From an uncultured Anaerobiospirillum sp. (GTDB lineage: Bacteria > Pseudomonadota > Gammaproteobacteria > Enterobacterales > Succinivibrionaceae): a stretch of DNA of 47,813 bases. Location: the NCBI GenBank assembly GCA_944390115.1, contig CALXOW010000020.1:1-47813 (forward strand), in the 5' to 3' direction. Below are positions 23,666-33,093 of this stretch, piece after piece (positions within the stretch are counted from its first letter, which is position 1; each line of letters begins with the position of its first letter). A program made the position numbers and the translations under genes. The notes below the pieces were generated by a model that was not told the DNA's origin, ran no database searches, and saw only the letters and a list, made by a program, of their open reading frames with translations.

Positions 23666-25123
23666 CTAGGTGCGCCAGAAGAAGCGGGTCATGAGCAGCA
23701 GCACCGGAATGATCTCAAGACGGCCTAAGAGCATGTCAAAGGCAAAGATAAGCTGAATGCCCCAGTGCAGGCCCGCGAAGTTAGCGCTTGGGTTGAGCTC
23801 AGGACCAATGGCCGGGCCAACATTTGATAGACAGGTTACGGTCGCCGAAATCGCATCGATGATGTTGAGGCCGCCCATGGTGCAGATAAGGCTGGAGACA
23901 ATCACCACGATAATGTAGGCCGCAAAGTAGGTGATGATGCTGTGCATGGTGGCGGCATCAACCACGTGGCGATTGAAGTAAGGCTCAATCACGCGGTGCG
24001 GGTGCAAGCTTTTAATGAGCTGGGTCTTAAAGAGCGAGGCGGCGACCTGCAATCTAAAGAATTTCATGCCACCGGAGGTCGAGCCCGAGCAGCCGCCTAA
24101 AGGCAAGATGAAGAAGAAGATTAAGGTGGCGACCGGATTCCACTGGGTAAAGTCCTCGAGGGCAAAGCCACTGGTCGATAAAATCGAGGTGATGTTGAAG
24201 ATGGACACGCGCCAGGCGTGCTCTAAATCGTAGCCGTTGTAGAACATCAAGGTGGCGGTGATGACGGCGGACGCGAGCAGGGTAAAGATGAAGTAGCCGC
24301 GCATCTGCTGGTCAATCCAGGCCTTGTGGATATTACCGGCGATACCGGCTACCACCACGGCAAAAGGACAGCTGCAGATGAACATGAAAAAGGCGGCACT
24401 GTAGTGCACAAAGGGCGAAAAGCCGTTCATTGAGGCGTCAAGCGGCATCATGCCGCCGGTGGCTACCGTGCACATCGAGGCGTTGATCGCCATGAAAAAG
24501 TCCATGCCGCCGATGATATAGGCCGCCGTGCACAGGATAAAGACCGCAATGTAATAGCCTAAGATCGCCATCGACATAGTCTTGAGGTGCGGGGTGAACT
24601 TATTGCGGTCCTCAAAGGAAGTCGACTCGGTTCTAAAGATGTTCATGCCGCCGGTGGCTGCCTGAGGCAGCACCGCCACCGCGATCACCACGAAGCCGAT
24701 GCCTCCTAACATCTGCAAGATCGAGCGCCACAGTAGCATAGCCGCAGGCTTGGTCTCCAGCTGGGAAATCGTGGTGGCACCCGTGGTCGATAGGGCCGAG
24801 GCGGACTCAAAGACAGCATTGGCGTAATTGAGCTCGGGCAGCATGGTGTTAATCGGGATAGCCGCCAGCAGCGCCACCATCACCCACAGCGAGGTGGTAA
24901 ATAAAAAGAGCTCGCGAATGCTCAGGCTTTCCTTGGTGCGCTTGGTGCCCACATAGCTTAAGAATTGGCTTAAGACCAAGGTTGCTAAGATCATCACGCC
25001 GAAGCTTAAGGCGCCTGAAGTGTCGTTAACCAAGGCGTAGCAAAAAGGAATCATGGCCGCTACGGCCAGGGCTAGCAGCGACGGTCCTAGCATCTTGGCG
25101 ACCGCATAAATATTGATAAACAC
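23666..25123 (-). CDS. trkH: Potassium uptake channel subunit TrkH
   Basis: The membrane pore of the Trk potassium system, working with the RCK regulator TrkA. There are about ten hydrophobic helices. The four pore loops can be followed: STTGATTISQ, CTVATGGMMPLDAS, STSGFALEDFTQWNP with CSGSTSGGMKFFRLQ, and CLSNVGPAIGPELNP. Each contributes a glycine to the filter. Length is 485 residues (E. coli 483). It starts 12 bp after trkA, so the two are surely co-transcribed. In E. coli trkH lies elsewhere, in the fadBA region. Confidence 0.96.
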   Translation of the reverse strand: MFINIYAVAKMLGPSLLALAVAAMIPFCYALVNDTSGALSFGVMILATLVLSQFLSYVGTKRTKESLSIRELFLFTTSLWVMVALLAAIPINTMLPELNYANAVFESASALSTTGATTISQLETKPAAMLLWRSILQMLGGIGFVVIAVAVLPQAATGGMNIFRTESTSFEDRNKFTPHLKTMSMAILGYYIAVFILCTAAYIIGGMDFFMAINASMCTVATGGMMPLDASMNGFSPFVHYSAAFFMFICSCPFAVVVAGIAGNIHKAWIDQQMRGYFIFTLLASAVITATLMFYNGYDLEHAWRVSIFNITSILSTSGFALEDFTQWNPVATLIFFFILPLGGCSGSTSGGMKFFRLQVAASLFKTQLIKSLHPHRVIEPYFNRHVVDAATMHSIITYFAAYIIVVIVSSLICTMGGLNIIDAISATVTCLSNVGPAIGPELNPSANFAGLHWGIQLIFAFDMLLGRLEIIPVLLLMTRFFWRT

Positions 25124-25135
25124 TATGGCCCCCTG

Positions 25136-26527
25136 TTAGCGCCAGTGTGGCACCCAGAATGGACGTGGCTTGAAGAGCTTGACCAAGGCGCGCATTTGAG
25201 TGCGATCGGTCAAATAGACCACGACGTGATCGCCTGGGGTGAAGACGTAGTCTTGGTCGATCTTGATGACCATCTTTTCGCGCAGGGCGATACCAAAGTG
25301 TACCCCCGGCGGCAGCGTGAGATCCTCAAGCTTGCGCCCAATCACATAACTGGAGCGCGGATCGCCTTGGACCAAGAGCTCTAAGGCTTCAGCTTGGCCG
25401 TGGCGGAAGATGCGCAGCTTGACCAAACCCTCTTGCAAAATAAGCGAGAGTAAGGCCGAAATAATGGCATCGCGCGGGGAAATAATGGTGTCAATCGGGC
25501 TGCCGGTGCTGCGTAAGTCCTGGGTTGAGAACTGGCGGATGACCGCGATGGTCCGAATCTTTTGGGTGCGCTGCAACATCAGGGCAGCCATGATGTTGGT
25601 TTCATCATTGGCCGAAGCGGCAATGAAGCTGTCCGTCTGATAGAGCTTTTCTTCTTGCACGAAGTTTGGGTCGGTGGCGTCGGCGCAGTAGAGCTCCACC
25701 TTGCTGCCGCGCAAGCGCTCGGCTAAGCGCTTGGCGCGATTAGGATCCGGCTCAATCAGCTTGACATGGTAGCGCTCGGCAAGGCGCATTGCGATGCTAT
25801 CGGCGATATGGGTACCGCCTTGAACCACGACGTCCATGCCGCTCGGGCGCAGCGGCATCAGGGCGCCGACCAAGTTTAAGGCGCGCGCGCGCTCAACACA
25901 GAGAATGACCTCATCGCCTGCGGCCAGCTTGAAGTGATCGAGTTTAGTGAGGGCGTTACCTTTGCGGTACACGGCCATCACCTTGCACTTAGGCTCGTAG
26001 TTCTCAAGCTCAACAATCGGCTGGCCGATCAGCTTGCCCCCTTCCTTGCAGGTGACTGAGGTCATGATGAGGCGGTCGCGGGCAAAGGACTGAATGGCAT
26101 TGACCCCAGGGATCTCCATCAGATCGCTCACCGCATCGGCCATCAGTTGCTCCGGCGAGATGATGTGGTCGATCGGAATGGCTTGCGGGCCAAAGAGCTT
26201 ATCGGCCTCATCAAAGAAGTCAGGTGCGCGCAGGCGCGCGATTTTGCGCGGGATATTGAACAGATAGGTGGCGATGCAGCAGGTAGTGATGTTGACCTCA
26301 TCGCTGGCGGAGGTGGCAACCAAGAGCTCGGTATTACGTGCTCCGGCCTCACGCAAGACCGAAGGCCAGGTGGGATCGCCTTGAATGACGCGCAAATCGA
26401 GGCGATTGGCAATTTGGGTGAGCTCATCTGAGGGCAGATCGATCAAGGTGACCGCATGCCCGGTCTGCACCAGATACTCGGCCAGCTCAGTTCCGACCAA
26501 GGTCGCACCAACAATGATGATCTTCAT
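25136..26527 (-). CDS. trkA: Trk potassium system regulatory subunit TrkA
   Basis: A peripheral cytoplasmic protein that gates TrkH. Two tandem RCK units, each a Rossmann (TrkA-N) and a TrkA-C domain, fill 463 residues (E. coli 458). The N-terminus MKIIIVGATLVGTELAEYL aligns with E. coli MKIIILGAGQVGGTLAENL. The glycine signatures are altered: GATLVG in the first half and GGTHIA in the second, against GAGQVG and GGGNIG in E. coli. Acidic residues ending beta-2 (TLIDLP, KLIEPD) remain. Nucleotide binding may therefore differ. It follows the PLMP-domain gene by 62 bp and precedes trkH. Confidence 0.95.
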   Translation of the reverse strand: MKIIIVGATLVGTELAEYLVQTGHAVTLIDLPSDELTQIANRLDLRVIQGDPTWPSVLREAGARNTELLVATSASDEVNITTCCIATYLFNIPRKIARLRAPDFFDEADKLFGPQAIPIDHIISPEQLMADAVSDLMEIPGVNAIQSFARDRLIMTSVTCKEGGKLIGQPIVELENYEPKCKVMAVYRKGNALTKLDHFKLAAGDEVILCVERARALNLVGALMPLRPSGMDVVVQGGTHIADSIAMRLAERYHVKLIEPDPNRAKRLAERLRGSKVELYCADATDPNFVQEEKLYQTDSFIAASANDETNIMAALMLQRTQKIRTIAVIRQFSTQDLRSTGSPIDTIISPRDAIISALLSLILQEGLVKLRIFRHGQAEALELLVQGDPRSSYVIGRKLEDLTLPPGVHFGIALREKMVIKIDQDYVFTPGDHVVVYLTDRTQMRALVKLFKPRPFWVPHWR

Positions 26528-26589
26528 CCCATTTAAGGCGCGCCAACCCCCAAAGCTACTTGGCAGTGGCGCACGGCCTCCCTAAAAAA

Positions 26590-27159
26590 TTAATTTGATT
26601 TTATTGAGCTACGCTCAGGCAGCTTATTGGGCTGAGCCCGACCCGGCCCCACCGGACGCTGGCCTTGAGGCTGACCCTGACGTTGAGCCCCCGTCTGACC
26701 CCCAGGTCTACCCTGACGGCGCTGCCACGGCTGGCCTTGGCTCTGTCCCGGCTTACCATAGTTACCTGGCTTGCCCTGGTGCTGCCCGGACTTGGCTGGG
26801 TGGCGTTGCCCCGGCTTGCCCTGGTTCTGACCGGACTTACCTTGGTGCTGCCCTGTTTGAGCGGCACTCTGCTTGTTCTTACGTGGTACGCAGGGTACGG
26901 GCTCAAGCTGCGGCTCAGTGTCGCCCTCTGCGGTCGGAGCGACGCGCAACCCCTTGTAGTGGTAGCCGGGATCGTCGCTGGGGGCAATCGGTCTTCTGAT
27001 TTCGCCTGAGGCTATGGTCAGCTGAATGGTGAAAGGCTTAATGAACTTCACAAAGGCCTTCTTATCATTAAGCAGCTTGCGGGCTTTGACCGGCGTGCAG
27101 GGCATCAGCGGCTGCCCACGCATGTTCAGAATGCAAACTTTAACTTTTGCTGGTTCCAT
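26590..27159 (-). CDS. Orphan PLMP-domain protein (IscB N-terminal domain) with basic low-complexity tail
   Basis: A 189-residue protein. Residues 6-48 match the PLMP domain that opens IscB, IsrB and IshB: VCILNMRGQPLMPC, then KARKLLNDKKAFV, then PFTIQLT. DDPGYHYKGLRV (62-73) resembles the start of IscB RuvC-I (DPGSKTTGIAVV), but no further RuvC, bridge-helix or HNH sequence follows. Residues about 95-175 are basic and rich in Gln, Gly, Lys and Pro, with repeated QGKPGQ-like words. ATG 27159 is chosen because it starts the conserved domain after GGGGGCG; the upstream frame extension overlaps rsmB. Only 31 bp separate it from rsmB and 62 bp from trkA, so it sits in an operon with no room for an upstream omega RNA. 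A role in RNA binding is inference; a decayed iscB is the alternative. Confidence 0.7.
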   Translation of the reverse strand: MEPAKVKVCILNMRGQPLMPCTPVKARKLLNDKKAFVKFIKPFTIQLTIASGEIRRPIAPSDDPGYHYKGLRVAPTAEGDTEPQLEPVPCVPRKNKQSAAQTGQHQGKSGQNQGKPGQRHPAKSGQHQGKPGNYGKPGQSQGQPWQRRQGRPGGQTGAQRQGQPQGQRPVGPGRAQPNKLPERSSIKSN

Positions 27160-27190
27160 GATATCGCCCCCAATTTTAGGATGGCCTGGC

Positions 27191-28939
27191 TTAAACCGGC
27201 TTGACGAAGCGGGCGTAGAAGAAGCCATCGCCGTGGTCATCGCCCGGCAGGCGCTGGAGCGTGGTGTAACTCTGCGTGCCTAGGGTAAAGGCCTTGAGGC
27301 TCGCCTCGGGGTGCCGGGCTAAAAAGGCTTGTACCTGCGCGTCGTTTTCCTCCGGCAGAATCGAGCAGGTGGTGTACACCAACAGGCCCCCTGGGCTTAG
27401 CTTGTCGTAGGCCGCATCCAAGATCGCGGCTTGTACCTGAGCTAAGGCACTAATGTCCTTAGCGCGGCGCAACCACTTGATATCAGGGTGACGGCGAATA
27501 ACGCCGGTGCCGGAGCACGGGGCATCGACCAAGATGCGCTCAAAGGTGCCCTCAAGCTCTGCTAACTTGGTCGCGTCAAGCGCCTGAAGCGTGACATTGG
27601 TGCGCCCTAAGCGCGTTAAGGTGTCTTGGGTCGACTTGAGGCGGTTGTGGTCCACATCAAAGGCCGTGAGGTTAACCTCAGGGTTTAAGTCCAAGATGTG
27701 GGCGCTCTTACCGCCAGGGGCGCAGCAGCAATCAAGCACACGGCTGCCAGCAGGTAAGGACTCTAAGTCCATGAGCGGGGCCGCGAGTTGTGCACTTAAA
27801 TCCTGCACCGTGCAGCGGCCCTGGGCAAAGCCTGGGATGTGCTCAACATTGAGCGCTGACTCAAGCTCGATCGCACCTGAATAGAGGGCACAGGCCTGAG
27901 CGTTGATGCCAGCGGCAGCAAGCTCAGCTAACTGCGCCTCGCGCGTGGTCTTAGACTGCTCTACGCGCAAGAAGAGCGGTGCCTTCTCATTGCTATGCTG
28001 CAAGATATCGCGGCAGCGCTCAGGGTAGCTCTCCTTGAGCTTTGTGTAGAGCCAATCTGGGAAGGAGTAGTCGACCGCCTCATTGTCGCTGTGAAGCAGC
28101 TGTCCGCCCTCACGCAGGAAGCGGCGCAAGATCGCGTTGACCAGCGAGGTAAAGCCCTTACGCTCGATATCAGCGCAGGCACTGACGGTGGCTGCGACCA
28201 CAGCGTGGACTGGCACGCGCATGAAGGTGAGCTGGTACAGGGCCACTAAGAGCAGGGCCTGGACAATGCGATGGCGCTCGGTGATCTTGTAATTAAAGAG
28301 CGGCTTTAAGGTATTAAGGAGCAAGCGGCGCTGACGCAGCGTGCCGTACACCATTTCCTTGATAAAGGAAACGTCGCGCTCATCAAAGCCTTGCAGATGG
28401 CGTGGAAAGGCTTCGCTCAATGACACGCCGTCACTGACCGCATCGACGATGAGAGCCGCAGCTGCACGCGAGCGGGCACCGGCTGCCAGTCCAGCGCTGT
28501 TCTTGACCATCTTGCTGTGGCTCTTGGGGCTCAAGGCAATGACCTTACCCTCAGCTGCTTCCAAGGAGCGTGCTGGGGCGCGCTCAGAGGCGCGTTCAGC
28601 GCGGCGCTCTTCCTGAGTGGAGCTGACGTTCTTGACCTTGCCGTCAGCGGCTACTTCTTTTCTAAAGAAGTTGTGCTTCGGGCCAAGCTCATTAGCGTGG
28701 GCCCATGGGCTCTTAGGGTGCGGCTTGCCGTCGTGCGTCTTATTGCCTTGAGGCAGACCGACGTGGGCCTTGCCTTGGGCCTTACCTTGAGGCTTTGCCC
28801 CAGGAGCGCGGCGGGCCGAAGCTGCGTTGCCCGAAGCTGTGCTGCCCTGGGCCTTAGGGTGGGCGCCATTAGAGGTAGTGTGGCCTGCGGCCGGGCGCGG
28901 GCGCAAAGTGAGCTTAGGCAAAGCGGTTTCCTCGAGCAA
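27191..28939 (-). CDS. rsmB: 16S rRNA m5C967 methyltransferase RsmB
   Basis: Methylates C967 of 16S rRNA with S-adenosylmethionine. The N-terminal NusB-like RNA-binding domain starts at about residue 155 (ALIVDAVSDGVSLSEAF). The methyltransferase domain has CCCAPGGKSAH (SAM site), the nucleophile region DAPCSGTGVIRRHPD and the second catalytic cysteine in YTTCSILPEEN. E. coli RsmB has 429 residues; here the open frame gives 582, because about 145 residues of basic low-complexity sequence (QGKAQGKAH, GKPHPKSPW) precede the conserved part. The frame opens with TTG at 28939, overlapping the fmt end by 26 bp. An internal ATG at 28510 would give 439 residues of normal size. Neither has a strong ribosome site, so the start is uncertain. 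Confidence 0.92.
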   Translation of the reverse strand: MLEETALPKLTLRPRPAAGHTTSNGAHPKAQGSTASGNAASARRAPGAKPQGKAQGKAHVGLPQGNKTHDGKPHPKSPWAHANELGPKHNFFRKEVAADGKVKNVSSTQEERRAERASERAPARSLEAAEGKVIALSPKSHSKMVKNSAGLAAGARSRAAAALIVDAVSDGVSLSEAFPRHLQGFDERDVSFIKEMVYGTLRQRRLLLNTLKPLFNYKITERHRIVQALLLVALYQLTFMRVPVHAVVAATVSACADIERKGFTSLVNAILRRFLREGGQLLHSDNEAVDYSFPDWLYTKLKESYPERCRDILQHSNEKAPLFLRVEQSKTTREAQLAELAAAGINAQACALYSGAIELESALNVEHIPGFAQGRCTVQDLSAQLAAPLMDLESLPAGSRVLDCCCAPGGKSAHILDLNPEVNLTAFDVDHNRLKSTQDTLTRLGRTNVTLQALDATKLAELEGTFERILVDAPCSGTGVIRRHPDIKWLRRAKDISALAQVQAAILDAAYDKLSPGGLLVYTTCSILPEENDAQVQAFLARHPEASLKAFTLGTQSYTTLQRLPGDDHGDGFFYARFVKPV

Positions 28940-29858
28940 AGAGATCTTTCTTGGAGCAAGCTAAGTCGCAGGCGGCAACCTTGCCCTTACCTGGAGCCTG
29001 AATCGTCACTAAGGTCAAGGCGCTGTTCTGGCCACAGGCGACCACGATACCTTCGTGGTTGACCTCTAAAATGGTGCCTGGCTCAGCCTGGTCAGCGGTC
29101 TGCCCATCTTTTGCGGCAAAGACCTTGTAGGTGACATCGGCAAGCTTACAGGTGGCGACCGGCCATGGATTTAAGCCGCGTACTTGTAAGGACAATTGCG
29201 CCGCGCTCTGAGTGAAATCAAGCGGGCACTCGTCCTTGGTCAGTTTTTGGGCGTAGGTGACCTGGGCCTCGTCTTGCGGCTCCGGGCTAATCTTTTGCTC
29301 CAAGATCGCAGGTAGGCTGTCCACTAAGGCGCTGGCACCTAAGGTTGCCAGGCGCTCAAAGAGGGTGCCTGAGGTGTCCTCTGGGGCGATGGTGAGCTCG
29401 CGCTTGACTAGCATGGCACCGGCATCTAAGGCTTTGACAATCTGCATGATCGTCACGCCCGTGATCGGGTCGCCGCTTAATAAGGCGCGCTGAATCGGCG
29501 CGGCACCGCGCCACTTAGGCAGCAAGGAGCCGTGGACGTTGATGCAGCCTAAGCGCGGGGCGTTTAACACGCGCTTAGGGAGGATTAAACCGTAGGCCAC
29601 TACGATCGCAAGATCGGCCTGATGGCTTTCCCAGGCGGCGATATCGGCTTCATCCTTGAAGTTGACCGGGGTAAAGACCGGTAAGTTATGTTCTAAGGCC
29701 AAGGACTTTACTGGGCTCGGCGTCAGTTTGTGGCCGCGTCCTGCCGGACGGTCTGGTTGGGTGTACACCGCGACGATCTCAAAGTTAGCCTCAAGTAAGG
29801 CCTTAAGATGCACGGCAGCAAAATCAGGGGTGCCAGCAAAGATGATGCGTTGGGACAT
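28914..29858 (-). CDS. fmt: Methionyl-tRNA formyltransferase
   Basis: Formylates initiator Met-tRNA using 10-formyltetrahydrofolate. The N-terminal motif MSQRIIFAGTPDFAAVHLKAL, the catalytic NVHGSLLPKWRGAAPIQRAL (Asn-His-Ser loop) and GVTIMQIVKALDAGAML are all present. The C-terminal OB-like tRNA-binding domain ends in KKDLFARGNRFA. Length 314 matches E. coli (315). GAGG precedes the ATG by seven bases. It follows def by 23 bp and overlaps the rsmB frame at its 3' end, the usual def-fmt-rsmB order. Confidence 0.97.
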   Translation of the reverse strand: MSQRIIFAGTPDFAAVHLKALLEANFEIVAVYTQPDRPAGRGHKLTPSPVKSLALEHNLPVFTPVNFKDEADIAAWESHQADLAIVVAYGLILPKRVLNAPRLGCINVHGSLLPKWRGAAPIQRALLSGDPITGVTIMQIVKALDAGAMLVKRELTIAPEDTSGTLFERLATLGASALVDSLPAILEQKISPEPQDEAQVTYAQKLTKDECPLDFTQSAAQLSLQVRGLNPWPVATCKLADVTYKVFAAKDGQTADQAEPGTILEVNHEGIVVACGQNSALTLVTIQAPGKGKVAACDLACSKKDLFARGNRFA

Positions 29859-29881
29859 GCAAACCTCAAGGATGGTGGTGC

Positions 29882-30412
29882 TTAGTGCTTCAGGTGCTCT
29901 TTTTTGAACTTGATGAGGCGCTTCTTGATGCGCTCGCGCTGGAAAGTGCCTAAGTAATCGATAAAGAGGTGACCCTCTAAGTGGTCGAGCTCATGCTGTA
30001 TGCAGATAGCGAGCAGGCCCTCAGCTTCCTCAATGTGCTCTTGACCTTGCAGGTCAAAGTACTTGATCTTGATGCGCTCGGCGCGGTGCACTACCTCGTA
30101 GATTTCAGGTACCGACAGGCAGCCCTCTTGGGACTCAACCTCGCCGTACTTCTCTAAAATCTCCGGGTTCACCAAGGTCATAGGGTGGCGCATGGTCACA
30201 TTGCCTTGCTCATCGGTATCGGCAACGTCGATAACCACTAAGCGCTTGCTCACGCCAATCTGAGGGGCAGCCAGACCAATGCCCTCATAGAAGTACATGG
30301 TCTCGAACATATCGGCAACTAAGGTCGCAAGCTCCTCATCGAACTTGGTGACCTCGGTGGTCTTAGCTCTTAAGCGATCATCTGGGAAAATGACCATCTC
30401 GCGTACAGCCAT
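29882..30412 (-). CDS. def: Peptide deformylase
   Basis: Removes the formyl group from new proteins; the catalytic metal is usually iron. The three signature motifs are intact: GIGLAAPQIG, EGCLSVPE and CIQHELDHLEG. ATG 30412 (MAVREMVIFPDDRLR) is chosen because it matches the family start and has AAAGG eight bases upstream; the longer frame to 30457 is not supported. Length is 176 residues against 169 in E. coli. First gene of the def-fmt-rsmB-PLMP-trkA-trkH cluster. Confidence 0.97.
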   Translation of the reverse strand: MAVREMVIFPDDRLRAKTTEVTKFDEELATLVADMFETMYFYEGIGLAAPQIGVSKRLVVIDVADTDEQGNVTMRHPMTLVNPEILEKYGEVESQEGCLSVPEIYEVVHRAERIKIKYFDLQGQEHIEEAEGLLAICIQHELDHLEGHLFIDYLGTFQRERIKKRLIKFKKEHLKH

Positions 30413-30594
30413 AGCGTAACCTTTAAATTTCTTAGCACAATTAAGACAAAGCCGCATTTTACCACGTCCGTCAAGGGCGCTGCGGGCCCAGCGCTCAGGC
30501 CGTTGACCGCTTAGACAACGCGCTTTTGCCCTCAGGTCTTTGCACCTGTCAGACCACCTGAGGCTAGATTGAGTGGGACTTGAGGCGTCTTGGC

Positions 30595-30622
30595 TTGATT
30601 TATAGGGCCAAGGCGCTATGAT
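30595..30622 (+). promoter_or_regulatory. Promoter of the EptA/CptA-like gene
   Basis: A -35 (TTGATT, 30595-30600) and a -10 (TATGAT, 30617-30622) are separated by 16 bp. Transcription would start near 30629, giving a leader of about 30 nt before ATG 30658. No Shine-Dalgarno sequence lies in that leader. Confidence 0.6.
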
Positions 30623-30657
30623 GCGCGAGACTTTTGTTCTTGCGCTGGTTCTTGGCT

Positions 30658-33093
30658 ATGAAAAAATCTTCCTTTTGGGTTATTGCTTGGAGTATCGCCC
30701 TGTCCGTGGTGATGGGCTACTTCATGTTTAAGTTCTCAGGACGTGATTTGGCCCCAGATTGGGTTCGCCCATCCTTGGCGGTCATGTTCGCTCTGATTGC
30801 GGTGATGATCTTAATTAGGCTGGGGCGCACCCGCATTGCTGCCTTTATGCACTTTGTGGTCGGCTACGGTACCAGCCTCTTTATCACCTTGATGTACCTG
30901 TACTATCGCTCGATCGATGCGGTCTTCACCGGTGATGACGTGGTCGCTATCGCCCAATCAAACCCGGAGGAAGTGTGGGACTTCTTAAGCCATTACATCC
31001 TCAATACCACGAGCTTAGTGAGCACCTTAGTGCTCTTGGTAATCTATTACCTGCTCTTTAAGGTCTATCTCAAGCTGTGGCGCCCGGACAATCAGGCCGC
31101 GCTCTTTGCCCCATATTCACGCCGTGCCTTAGGCTTATTGCGCATCAAGTCGATGGTCTTAGTGGCCTTAAGCGCGATCTTGCTTTTAGGTTCGATCGGC
31201 GTCACCTCCCAGACCCGTCCTTTAAAGTACTACACCATCATGGTCCAAGAGTTAAAGGGGCGCCTTGATACCTTCCATGATTTGGTGGCAAAGCTTGAGA
31301 GTGATGACTCCTTCCAAGCGACCAAGGAGGGTAAGGGCGAGCTTTACGTCTTAATCATCGGTGAGTCCTTAAGCCGCGATAGCATGGGCGTGTACAACCA
31401 CAGTGTCGACAACACCCCATTCTTATCACAGCTGGTGTTATCAGGTCAGGCCCAGATCTTCCCTAACGCCTATGCCTCCTTTGTTAACACCGTGCCTTCG
31501 ATTACGGCTTCCTTCTCGCAAGGCAATCTGGCCACCGGTTTGACCTTCCCATATGGTGCGAACCTGGTGACCGTTGCCAAGAAGGCGGGCTTTAAGACCC
31601 ATTGGATCTCCAACCAAGTTAAGAATGGCTCGGCTGATACCCCAATTGGTGCGATTTCGTCTTTAACCGACTACAGCTTCTTTACCACCAACTTCGTTTT
31701 TGATGGTTCCTACTCGCAGCATCCGGACATGATCTTAATTCCGGAGATTAAGCGCACCTTAGAGAGCCTCGACCCGAGTGAAAACAATCTGCTCATCATC
31801 CACGTGATGGGCAATCATTCCCCTTACTACAATCGCTTCCCGGCTGACTACCCTAAGGTGGTTTTAAATCAAGCCGCTCAGATTGGTGGCCTTATCACCA
31901 AGCCACCGTTTAACGAGAGCTTGATTGGCGCGAGCGACTACGAAAATTATTTAACGGCGATCAAGTACAACGACATGGTGTTAAGCGAGATTGGCAAGCT
32001 CACCATGGACCGTGAGGACTTTGAGGCCCTGGTCTATTACTCTGATCACGGTGAGGCCCTGATCTATCAGTCCTTTAACGATATCGCCCCAGAGAATGCC
32101 AAGGAGCCTGCTGGGCGCCATAATGTAGCGCAATTCTCCTTTGCCATGACCCGCATTCCGCTGATCGTGGCACTCTCCGAGGATTTCAAGGCTAAGTACC
32201 CGCAAACGGTCCAGGCTTTAAACGAGCATCGTCAGGACATCTTTACCAACGACACACTCTACGACTTTATCCTCGACCTGCTGCAGATCAAGTCGCCTGC
32301 CATCAACTACCAGCTGGCCTTAGGTAACCCGAGCTACCAACGTGGTACTCCCGATGAGATTGAGCTGTTACAGCACAAGATTGTCGGTCACGACCCTGAT
32401 TACTTAGCCTTTGCCCACGCCCACGAGCCTGAGGGGGCCAATCTTACGGTCAAGAGCGCAAACTCGACCTTTAAGGCCAATTCCAGCCTGGCTAAGGGCT
32501 ATCATAAGCTTCAGATCAACACCCAATTTGAGTCAGGTGAGCTCTATGTGCGCGTCTTAAAGGACTTTAAGCGTGACTTCTACACCTTAGAGCAGTTCCT
32601 TGCCGTGCTCAAGAACCAAGATGGCTCAAGCTGGCTTGAGCCTGACCATCAAGGCCAGAGCGTTGACTTGTTGCTGACCGTCGATAATGAGGCGGCCTTA
32701 AGCGCCGAGCACAAGGAGCAGCTCACCGCCAAGCTGGTGGCCTTAGCCCCTGAGGTTAAGGAACACCTCTACCTTGCACTCACCGACCAAGGCTTGCGCT
32801 CCCAGCTACAGGCTCAAGGTTTAAAGCCATTGGCCTTACTGACCAGTGAGAATGCCAGCAGCGAGCACGCCGTCGGTGTCGCCTTAAGCGCCGATCTCTT
32901 AGCCAATGAGAATGTTCTGGGTCAAGTGGCCGCAGTACATGAGTCCGCAGGCTTAGTCGCGCTCTTTGACCCAAGCTTGAGTGTGCAAGACGCTGACTTC
33001 AGAACTCACCGTCAGGCGCTTTTAGAACGTTTAGGCTTTACCCCTGACTTCTTGGTGGTCAATTACTACAACGCTTTTGACTCCAACTTCTAA
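30658..33093 (+). CDS. EptA/CptA-like phosphoethanolamine transferase with an extra C-terminal region
   Basis: An inner-membrane enzyme of the alkaline-phosphatase-like superfamily, which transfers phosphoethanolamine to lipid A, core sugars or glucans. About five N-terminal helices (residues 1-190) precede the periplasmic domain. The nucleophile motif is IIGESLSRDSMGVYNH, where Ser237 aligns with the Thr of EptA (GETAR) and the Ser of CptA-like proteins (GEST). Metal-site residues follow in HVMGNHSPYYNRFP, YYSDHGEALIY (about 460-470) and RHNVAQF. Family members are usually about 550 residues; this has 811. The extra 240 residues (from about 570) include a segment resembling the strand pattern of glycerophosphodiester phosphodiesterases, but without clear catalytic residues. 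ATG 30658 is preferred over TTG 30634. Acceptor unknown. Confidence 0.82.
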   Translation: MKKSSFWVIAWSIALSVVMGYFMFKFSGRDLAPDWVRPSLAVMFALIAVMILIRLGRTRIAAFMHFVVGYGTSLFITLMYLYYRSIDAVFTGDDVVAIAQSNPEEVWDFLSHYILNTTSLVSTLVLLVIYYLLFKVYLKLWRPDNQAALFAPYSRRALGLLRIKSMVLVALSAILLLGSIGVTSQTRPLKYYTIMVQELKGRLDTFHDLVAKLESDDSFQATKEGKGELYVLIIGESLSRDSMGVYNHSVDNTPFLSQLVLSGQAQIFPNAYASFVNTVPSITASFSQGNLATGLTFPYGANLVTVAKKAGFKTHWISNQVKNGSADTPIGAISSLTDYSFFTTNFVFDGSYSQHPDMILIPEIKRTLESLDPSENNLLIIHVMGNHSPYYNRFPADYPKVVLNQAAQIGGLITKPPFNESLIGASDYENYLTAIKYNDMVLSEIGKLTMDREDFEALVYYSDHGEALIYQSFNDIAPENAKEPAGRHNVAQFSFAMTRIPLIVALSEDFKAKYPQTVQALNEHRQDIFTNDTLYDFILDLLQIKSPAINYQLALGNPSYQRGTPDEIELLQHKIVGHDPDYLAFAHAHEPEGANLTVKSANSTFKANSSLAKGYHKLQINTQFESGELYVRVLKDFKRDFYTLEQFLAVLKNQDGSSWLEPDHQGQSVDLLLTVDNEAALSAEHKEQLTAKLVALAPEVKEHLYLALTDQGLRSQLQAQGLKPLALLTSENASSEHAVGVALSADLLANENVLGQVAAVHESAGLVALFDPSLSVQDADFRTHRQALLERLGFTPDFLVVNYYNAFDSNF

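Follow-up and report, generated by a model that had tools for sequence, protein, structure and literature searches.

Results

A PLMP-only gene between rsmB and trkA

The window, which is the whole 47,813-nt stretch of Anaerobiospirillum DNA analysed here, contains a gene that encodes a free-standing IscB-type PLMP domain followed by a basic tail (Table 1). The gene lies between two ORFs that we take to be rsmB, a name that fits the sequence, and trkA; the ORFs just upstream on the same strand are presumably def, fmt and rsmB, as read. According to the ORF list, the frame runs intact for 189 codons and a stop from an ATG at 27159, and a G-rich run, GGGGGCG, lies a few bases 5′ of this ATG. The initial annotation had described an intact ORF with a plausible start, tightly packed between its neighbours, and the distances measured bear this out, with 31 bp from the rsmB stop to the gene and 62 bp from the gene to the trkA start. 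A scan of 24900–30700 found one promoter-like site, on the plus strand (2.0 expected), and seven terminator-like sites (5.7 expected), none of which falls within 26528–27190. The leader of the gene shows no notable RNA fold (z −0.16 and −0.93). The N-terminal extension of rsmB (28500–28939, minus strand) is fast-changing, low in complexity and rich in Q, G, K and P, resembling the tail of the PLMP-only gene.

Table 1. Coordinates of the PLMP-only gene, its parts and its two neighbours in the window.
Feature	Position	Strand	Basis
PLMP-only gene, 189 codons and stop	26590..27159	-	ORF; G006 ortholog in the same position
PLMP domain core, about residues 8-54	26998..27138	-	RRXRR match 8-74; invariant columns
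Degenerate RuvC-I strand remnant, residues 59-74	26938..26985	-	Alignment with IscB rows
Acidic proline-rich linker, residues 75-92	26884..26937	-	Net charge -4; dN/dS 0.14 over 18 codons
Basic Q/G/P/K/R-rich low-complexity tail, residues 93-189	26593..26883	-	Composition; dN/dS 0.33, 85 aligned codons
rsmB (presumed), upstream neighbour; N-terminal extension also low in complexity	27191..28939	-	ORF; same neighbour in G006
trkA (presumed), downstream neighbour	25136..26527	-	ORF; same neighbour in G006

Profile searches confirm the PLMP identity that had been proposed from the letters alone. Residues 8–74 match Pfam RRXRR (PF14239) with 46.1 bits (cut-off 25, E 6.7e-12) over profile positions 1–68 of 174, and NCBIfam guided_IscB (NF040563) with 47.1 bits (E 1.7e-12) over positions 1–69 of 314, the whole-protein cut-off of 175 for the latter not being reached. 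The PDB sequences of solved IscB/IsrB chains match the protein from E 9.2e-07, the IsrB chain at E 1.5e-05. When the gene and its ortholog in a second genome (G006, see below) were aligned with 17 IscB-type rows, 15 columns proved invariant in 19/19 rows, including N12, G15–P20 and P42/F43/I45–L47. Residues 59–73, first read as the opening strand of RuvC-I, do align with that strand, and D63 occupies its Asp column, but APSDD stands in place of the hydrophobic LG(V/I)D; a working RuvC strand is therefore unlikely, and the stretch is a degenerate remnant. Apart from RRXRR, the Pfam scan of the protein returned only a weak Vitelline_membr match (10.6 bits, below its cut-off), and RuvC-II/III and HNH were not found in it. 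Beyond the degenerate stretch, no further RuvC was matched by the Pfam and NCBIfam profiles.

The PLMP part carries a net charge of +9. The tail is basic, as the first reading had it, with a pI of 12 and a net charge of +17. When it was searched against the window's own genome (G000), only the tail itself was returned below E 0.05, and stops interrupt the two matches that scored less well (E 0.09 and E 0.17). In the same genome the PLMP-only gene is the sole PF14239 match.

Distribution and selection

Among 57 genomes of the family, a PLMP match (query residues 1–74, E up to 0.001) occurs in 13, and the PLMP-only gene stands between rsmB and trkA in two, the window genome G000 and G006, another Anaerobiospirillum genome with the same gene and the same neighbours. 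The search of related genomes suggested in the initial annotation thus found the gene in a second species; the case of a gene confined to one strain, with frameshifted relatives, is not what was observed. In the family, trkA is matched in 53/57 genomes and rsmB in 51/57. The two adjoin in 10 of the 11 genus genomes, neither being found in the eleventh (G001). The spacer could be read in these 10 members: two hold the PLMP-only gene and eight are empty, measuring 41 to 636 bp including the rsmB stop codon, with no PLMP frame. The longest of these (G008, L088, 636 bp) is filled, by eye, with seemingly imperfect repeats. The site is also empty in G005 and G009, which after G006 are nearest to the window by trkA identity (90% and 85%), and these two genomes have no PF14239 match anywhere and no HEARO. 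With only 2/10 readable genus members carrying it at this site, the gene does not belong to the rsmB operon in general. The simplest history has the gene arriving in the common ancestor of G000 and G006, although losses may have occurred.

In collinear sequence around the gene, the DNA identity of G000 and G006 is 88.5% across 9.3 kb and 89.9% across 2.3 kb. Over residues 1–92, dS is 0.646, dN is 0.078 and dN/dS is 0.12, with 7, 8 and 29 changes at the first, second and third codon positions and a Fisher p of about 6e-10 against equal rates (rounded counts). For comparison, dN/dS is 0.048 in trkA and 0.049 in the rsmB core, and the 140 aligned codons at the start of rsmB give 0.41. The dS of residues 1–92 (0.65) is somewhat above those of trkA (0.44) and rsmB (0.51). 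The dN/dS comparison that had been proposed as a check thus indicates purifying selection on residues 1–92, as judged from one pair of draft genomes, which argues against a fresh iscB fragment. The PLMP domain and linker are conserved letter by letter; the tail is conserved mainly in composition (+17 in the window, +19 in G006). Maintenance of the PLMP-only gene by selection is supported by this species pair.

HEARO and IscB in the carrier genomes

No Rfam HEARO match (E up to 0.01) lies beside the PLMP-only gene in either species (L002, L085). With a limit of E 0.001, HEARO is present in 18/57 genomes of the family, in 10 of them over the Rfam cut-off, and both carriers contain HEARO sequences elsewhere. 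The copy in G000 is truncated where contig C10 ends (L144:1-144, minus strand) and scores 84.9 bits when treated as truncated, the gathering score being 83. The same 146 bp HEARO, with other flanks, lies at a contig end in G006; since the flanks differ, this is probably a mobile copy, which suggests that HEARO copies were recently mobile in both genomes. A further HEARO-like RNA in G006 (L146:3070-3278, plus strand) scores 51.3 bits, below the gathering score of 83, and no IscB frame follows it in the stretch fetched.

With the IscB model, the only match in G000 is the PLMP-only gene itself. Weak matches to this model mean little because matches below the cut-off were also found in 9/14 control genomes. 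On contig C98 of G006, the start of an IscB lies at the contig end beside a HEARO. The iscB of the carriers has perhaps been lost in assembly gaps. Comparison of the standalone gene of G006 with the C98 IscB shows synonymous change to be saturated in the PLMP part, and the split between these two is therefore old. In a tree of 26 rows and 67 columns, which leaves 14 of its 23 inner branches open, the two standalone genes form a pair (100/99), and this pair joins the genus IscBs with weak support (85/80), in a group that includes a long-branch Desulfovibrio row. Leaving aside frames at contig ends, 4/5 genus genomes with HEARO have a PLMP-only frame, as against 0/6 without (Fisher 0.015); common descent from the same elements confounds this association.

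Other PLMP frames

A PLMP domain without RuvC or HNH is not unique to the window locus. Short nuclease-less PLMP frames were found elsewhere in the family, in G004 (an 82-codon open frame), G002 (188 codons), G017 (84) and G019 (135), with no HEARO in the stretches fetched around them; they may be decaying iscB. The RRXRR match at the G002 frame (L102:1031-1597, plus strand) continues past a stop. Against the IscB of the same genome, this frame gives a dN/dS of 0.22 in the PLMP part and 0.56 in the rest, a contrast that is suggestive only because the IscB branch is itself constrained. By eye, the frame is flanked by ORFs resembling ruvC and ruvA. The window's gene is alone among the nuclease-less PLMP frames found in having two-species evidence for selection.

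In a draw from the class, PF14239 is matched in 12/369 genomes. One of these matches, in G393 (L171:1486-2229, plus strand), is a 247-aa protein in which a PLMP-like N-domain (25.9 bits, cut-off 25) precedes QueH (192 bits); the domain is seen on QueH in one of three genomes of its family and order. By eye, this gene has neighbours like ruvB and queA. When the QueH fusion served as query, the viral matches (L214–L217) all fell in one long phage protein and were taken as chance. In a draw from the phylum, the PLMP profile matched 2/398 genomes, namely the window genome and another, in which the frame has 510 codons. On viral contigs, 20 of the 21 PLMP loci lie in frames of at least 405 codons, and the remaining one runs off its contig. 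Fifteen plasmid records matched, all with less than 60% identity, and 8 of the 10 matches listed are annotated as iscB; three phage records matched, all partially and without annotation. A PLMP-only protein was not recognised, by title or start of abstract, among the matches listed from open-licence papers.

Discussion

We consider it rather probable, at roughly 0.6, that the gene is an exapted PLMP domain of iscB origin, most likely encoding a small RNA-binding protein. An iscB-derived gene would have shed its nuclease part and omega RNA, and by the time the two Anaerobiospirillum species split, its PLMP domain would have been established between rsmB and trkA as a host gene. In the published IscB and IsrB structures, the PLMP domain contacts the terminal hairpins of the omega RNA (PMC9581776, PMC9640706), including, in IsrB, its Shine-Dalgarno hairpin (PMC9581776); the contacts in OgeuIscB are described there as mainly sequence-independent (PMC9640706). 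By analogy, the PLMP fold of the present protein may dock at an RNA hairpin, and the flexible basic tail may add non-specific affinity for RNA. The initial annotation had proposed a domesticated RNA-binding module. The free-standing PLMP, its occurrence in a second species and the purifying selection all agree with domestication; RNA binding is predicted from the published structures and from charge, and the function proposed here, with its target, is conjecture. A lone PLMP may bind poorly, because in IsrB extensive contacts with RuvC and TI brace the domain (PMC9581776).

As for the target, it had been argued that there is no room for an omega RNA. This holds at the locus, where no HEARO was found; both carriers hold HEARO elsewhere, and a role in trans on omega RNA is therefore possible. 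The protein might thus bind the omega RNA of resident HEARO/IscB elements and dampen or otherwise regulate them, a tentative proposal that is slightly favoured over ribosomal or other cellular RNA, a target to which we give somewhat lower odds.

Among the alternatives to an exapted RNA-binding PLMP, the one that fares best is a translation accessory, in which a PLMP domain resembling the N-terminal domain of IF3, together with the basic tail, would bind the 30S subunit or an initiator-tRNA context. Such a role would fit the presumed def, fmt and rsmB, which precede the gene closely in the same orientation, and the likeness of the PLMP fold to the IF3 N-terminal domain reported in the IsrB study (PMC9581776). 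IF3 itself, however, gives no HMMER match to the protein, and the gene is present at the site in only 2/10 readable genus members; we regard this reading as unlikely. Less likely again is a protein-binding module with no direct RNA role, in which the surface that once faced RuvC and TI would have come to bind a cellular protein or a resident IscB. The contacts of the IsrB PLMP with RuvC and TI mentioned above are in its favour, and the linker outside the RNA-binding core is likewise conserved (dN/dS 0.14, 18 codons), yet the charges of the PLMP part (+9) and the tail (+17) point to a polyanion as partner. A non-functional iscB N-terminal remnant, open by chance, could be imagined from the low-complexity, fast-changing tail and from the short PLMP frames resembling decaying iscB in the family and elsewhere, but it is improbable given the dN/dS of 0.12 over residues 1–92 and a substitution-only neutral simulation in which 4.1% of runs at 15% divergence, and 0.5% of those at 25%, retained an open frame.

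A broader proposal can be put forward, to which we lend clearly less than even odds: that PLMP is an autonomous RNA-hairpin-binding domain used by cells outside RNA-guided nucleases. It would act as a free, basic-tailed protein controlling omega RNAs or translation, or fused to a tRNA-modifying enzyme, as in the one PLMP-QueH, and the window gene would represent a descendant of the Cas9-ancestor family reduced to a single domain, free of nuclease and under selection. Such a gene would mean that recruitment can involve the small RNA-contacting part alone. It would also provide a natural single-domain protein for testing a lone PLMP on the omega-RNA 3′ end or a Shine-Dalgarno hairpin, or for action like that of the IF3 N-domain.

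The protein can be set beside several known systems. It is related to the IF3 N-terminal domain through the reported fold likeness of PLMP, but has no IF3 sequence match. With IscB (NF040563; the HEARO ORF) it shares the PLMP domain with core columns kept, whereas RuvC-II/III, HNH, WED, TI and an adjacent HEARO are absent and a basic low-complexity tail stands in their place. IsrB, the OMEGA nickase composed of PLMP and RuvC, is likewise matched in the PLMP domain (E 1.5e-05), and differs in its working RuvC nuclease and adjacent omega RNA. IshB consists of PLMP and HNH; like the window gene it has a PLMP without a full RuvC, but the window gene is without HNH as well. To our knowledge, the IscB relatives described so far keep a nuclease or part of one. 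TldR proteins, which derive from TnpB, are RNA-guided transcription factors. They offer a parallel for a transposon RNA-guided nuclease family in a nuclease-free role; TldR, however, belongs to the TnpB family and keeps guide-RNA binding and DNA targeting, whereas the window gene consists of one small domain.
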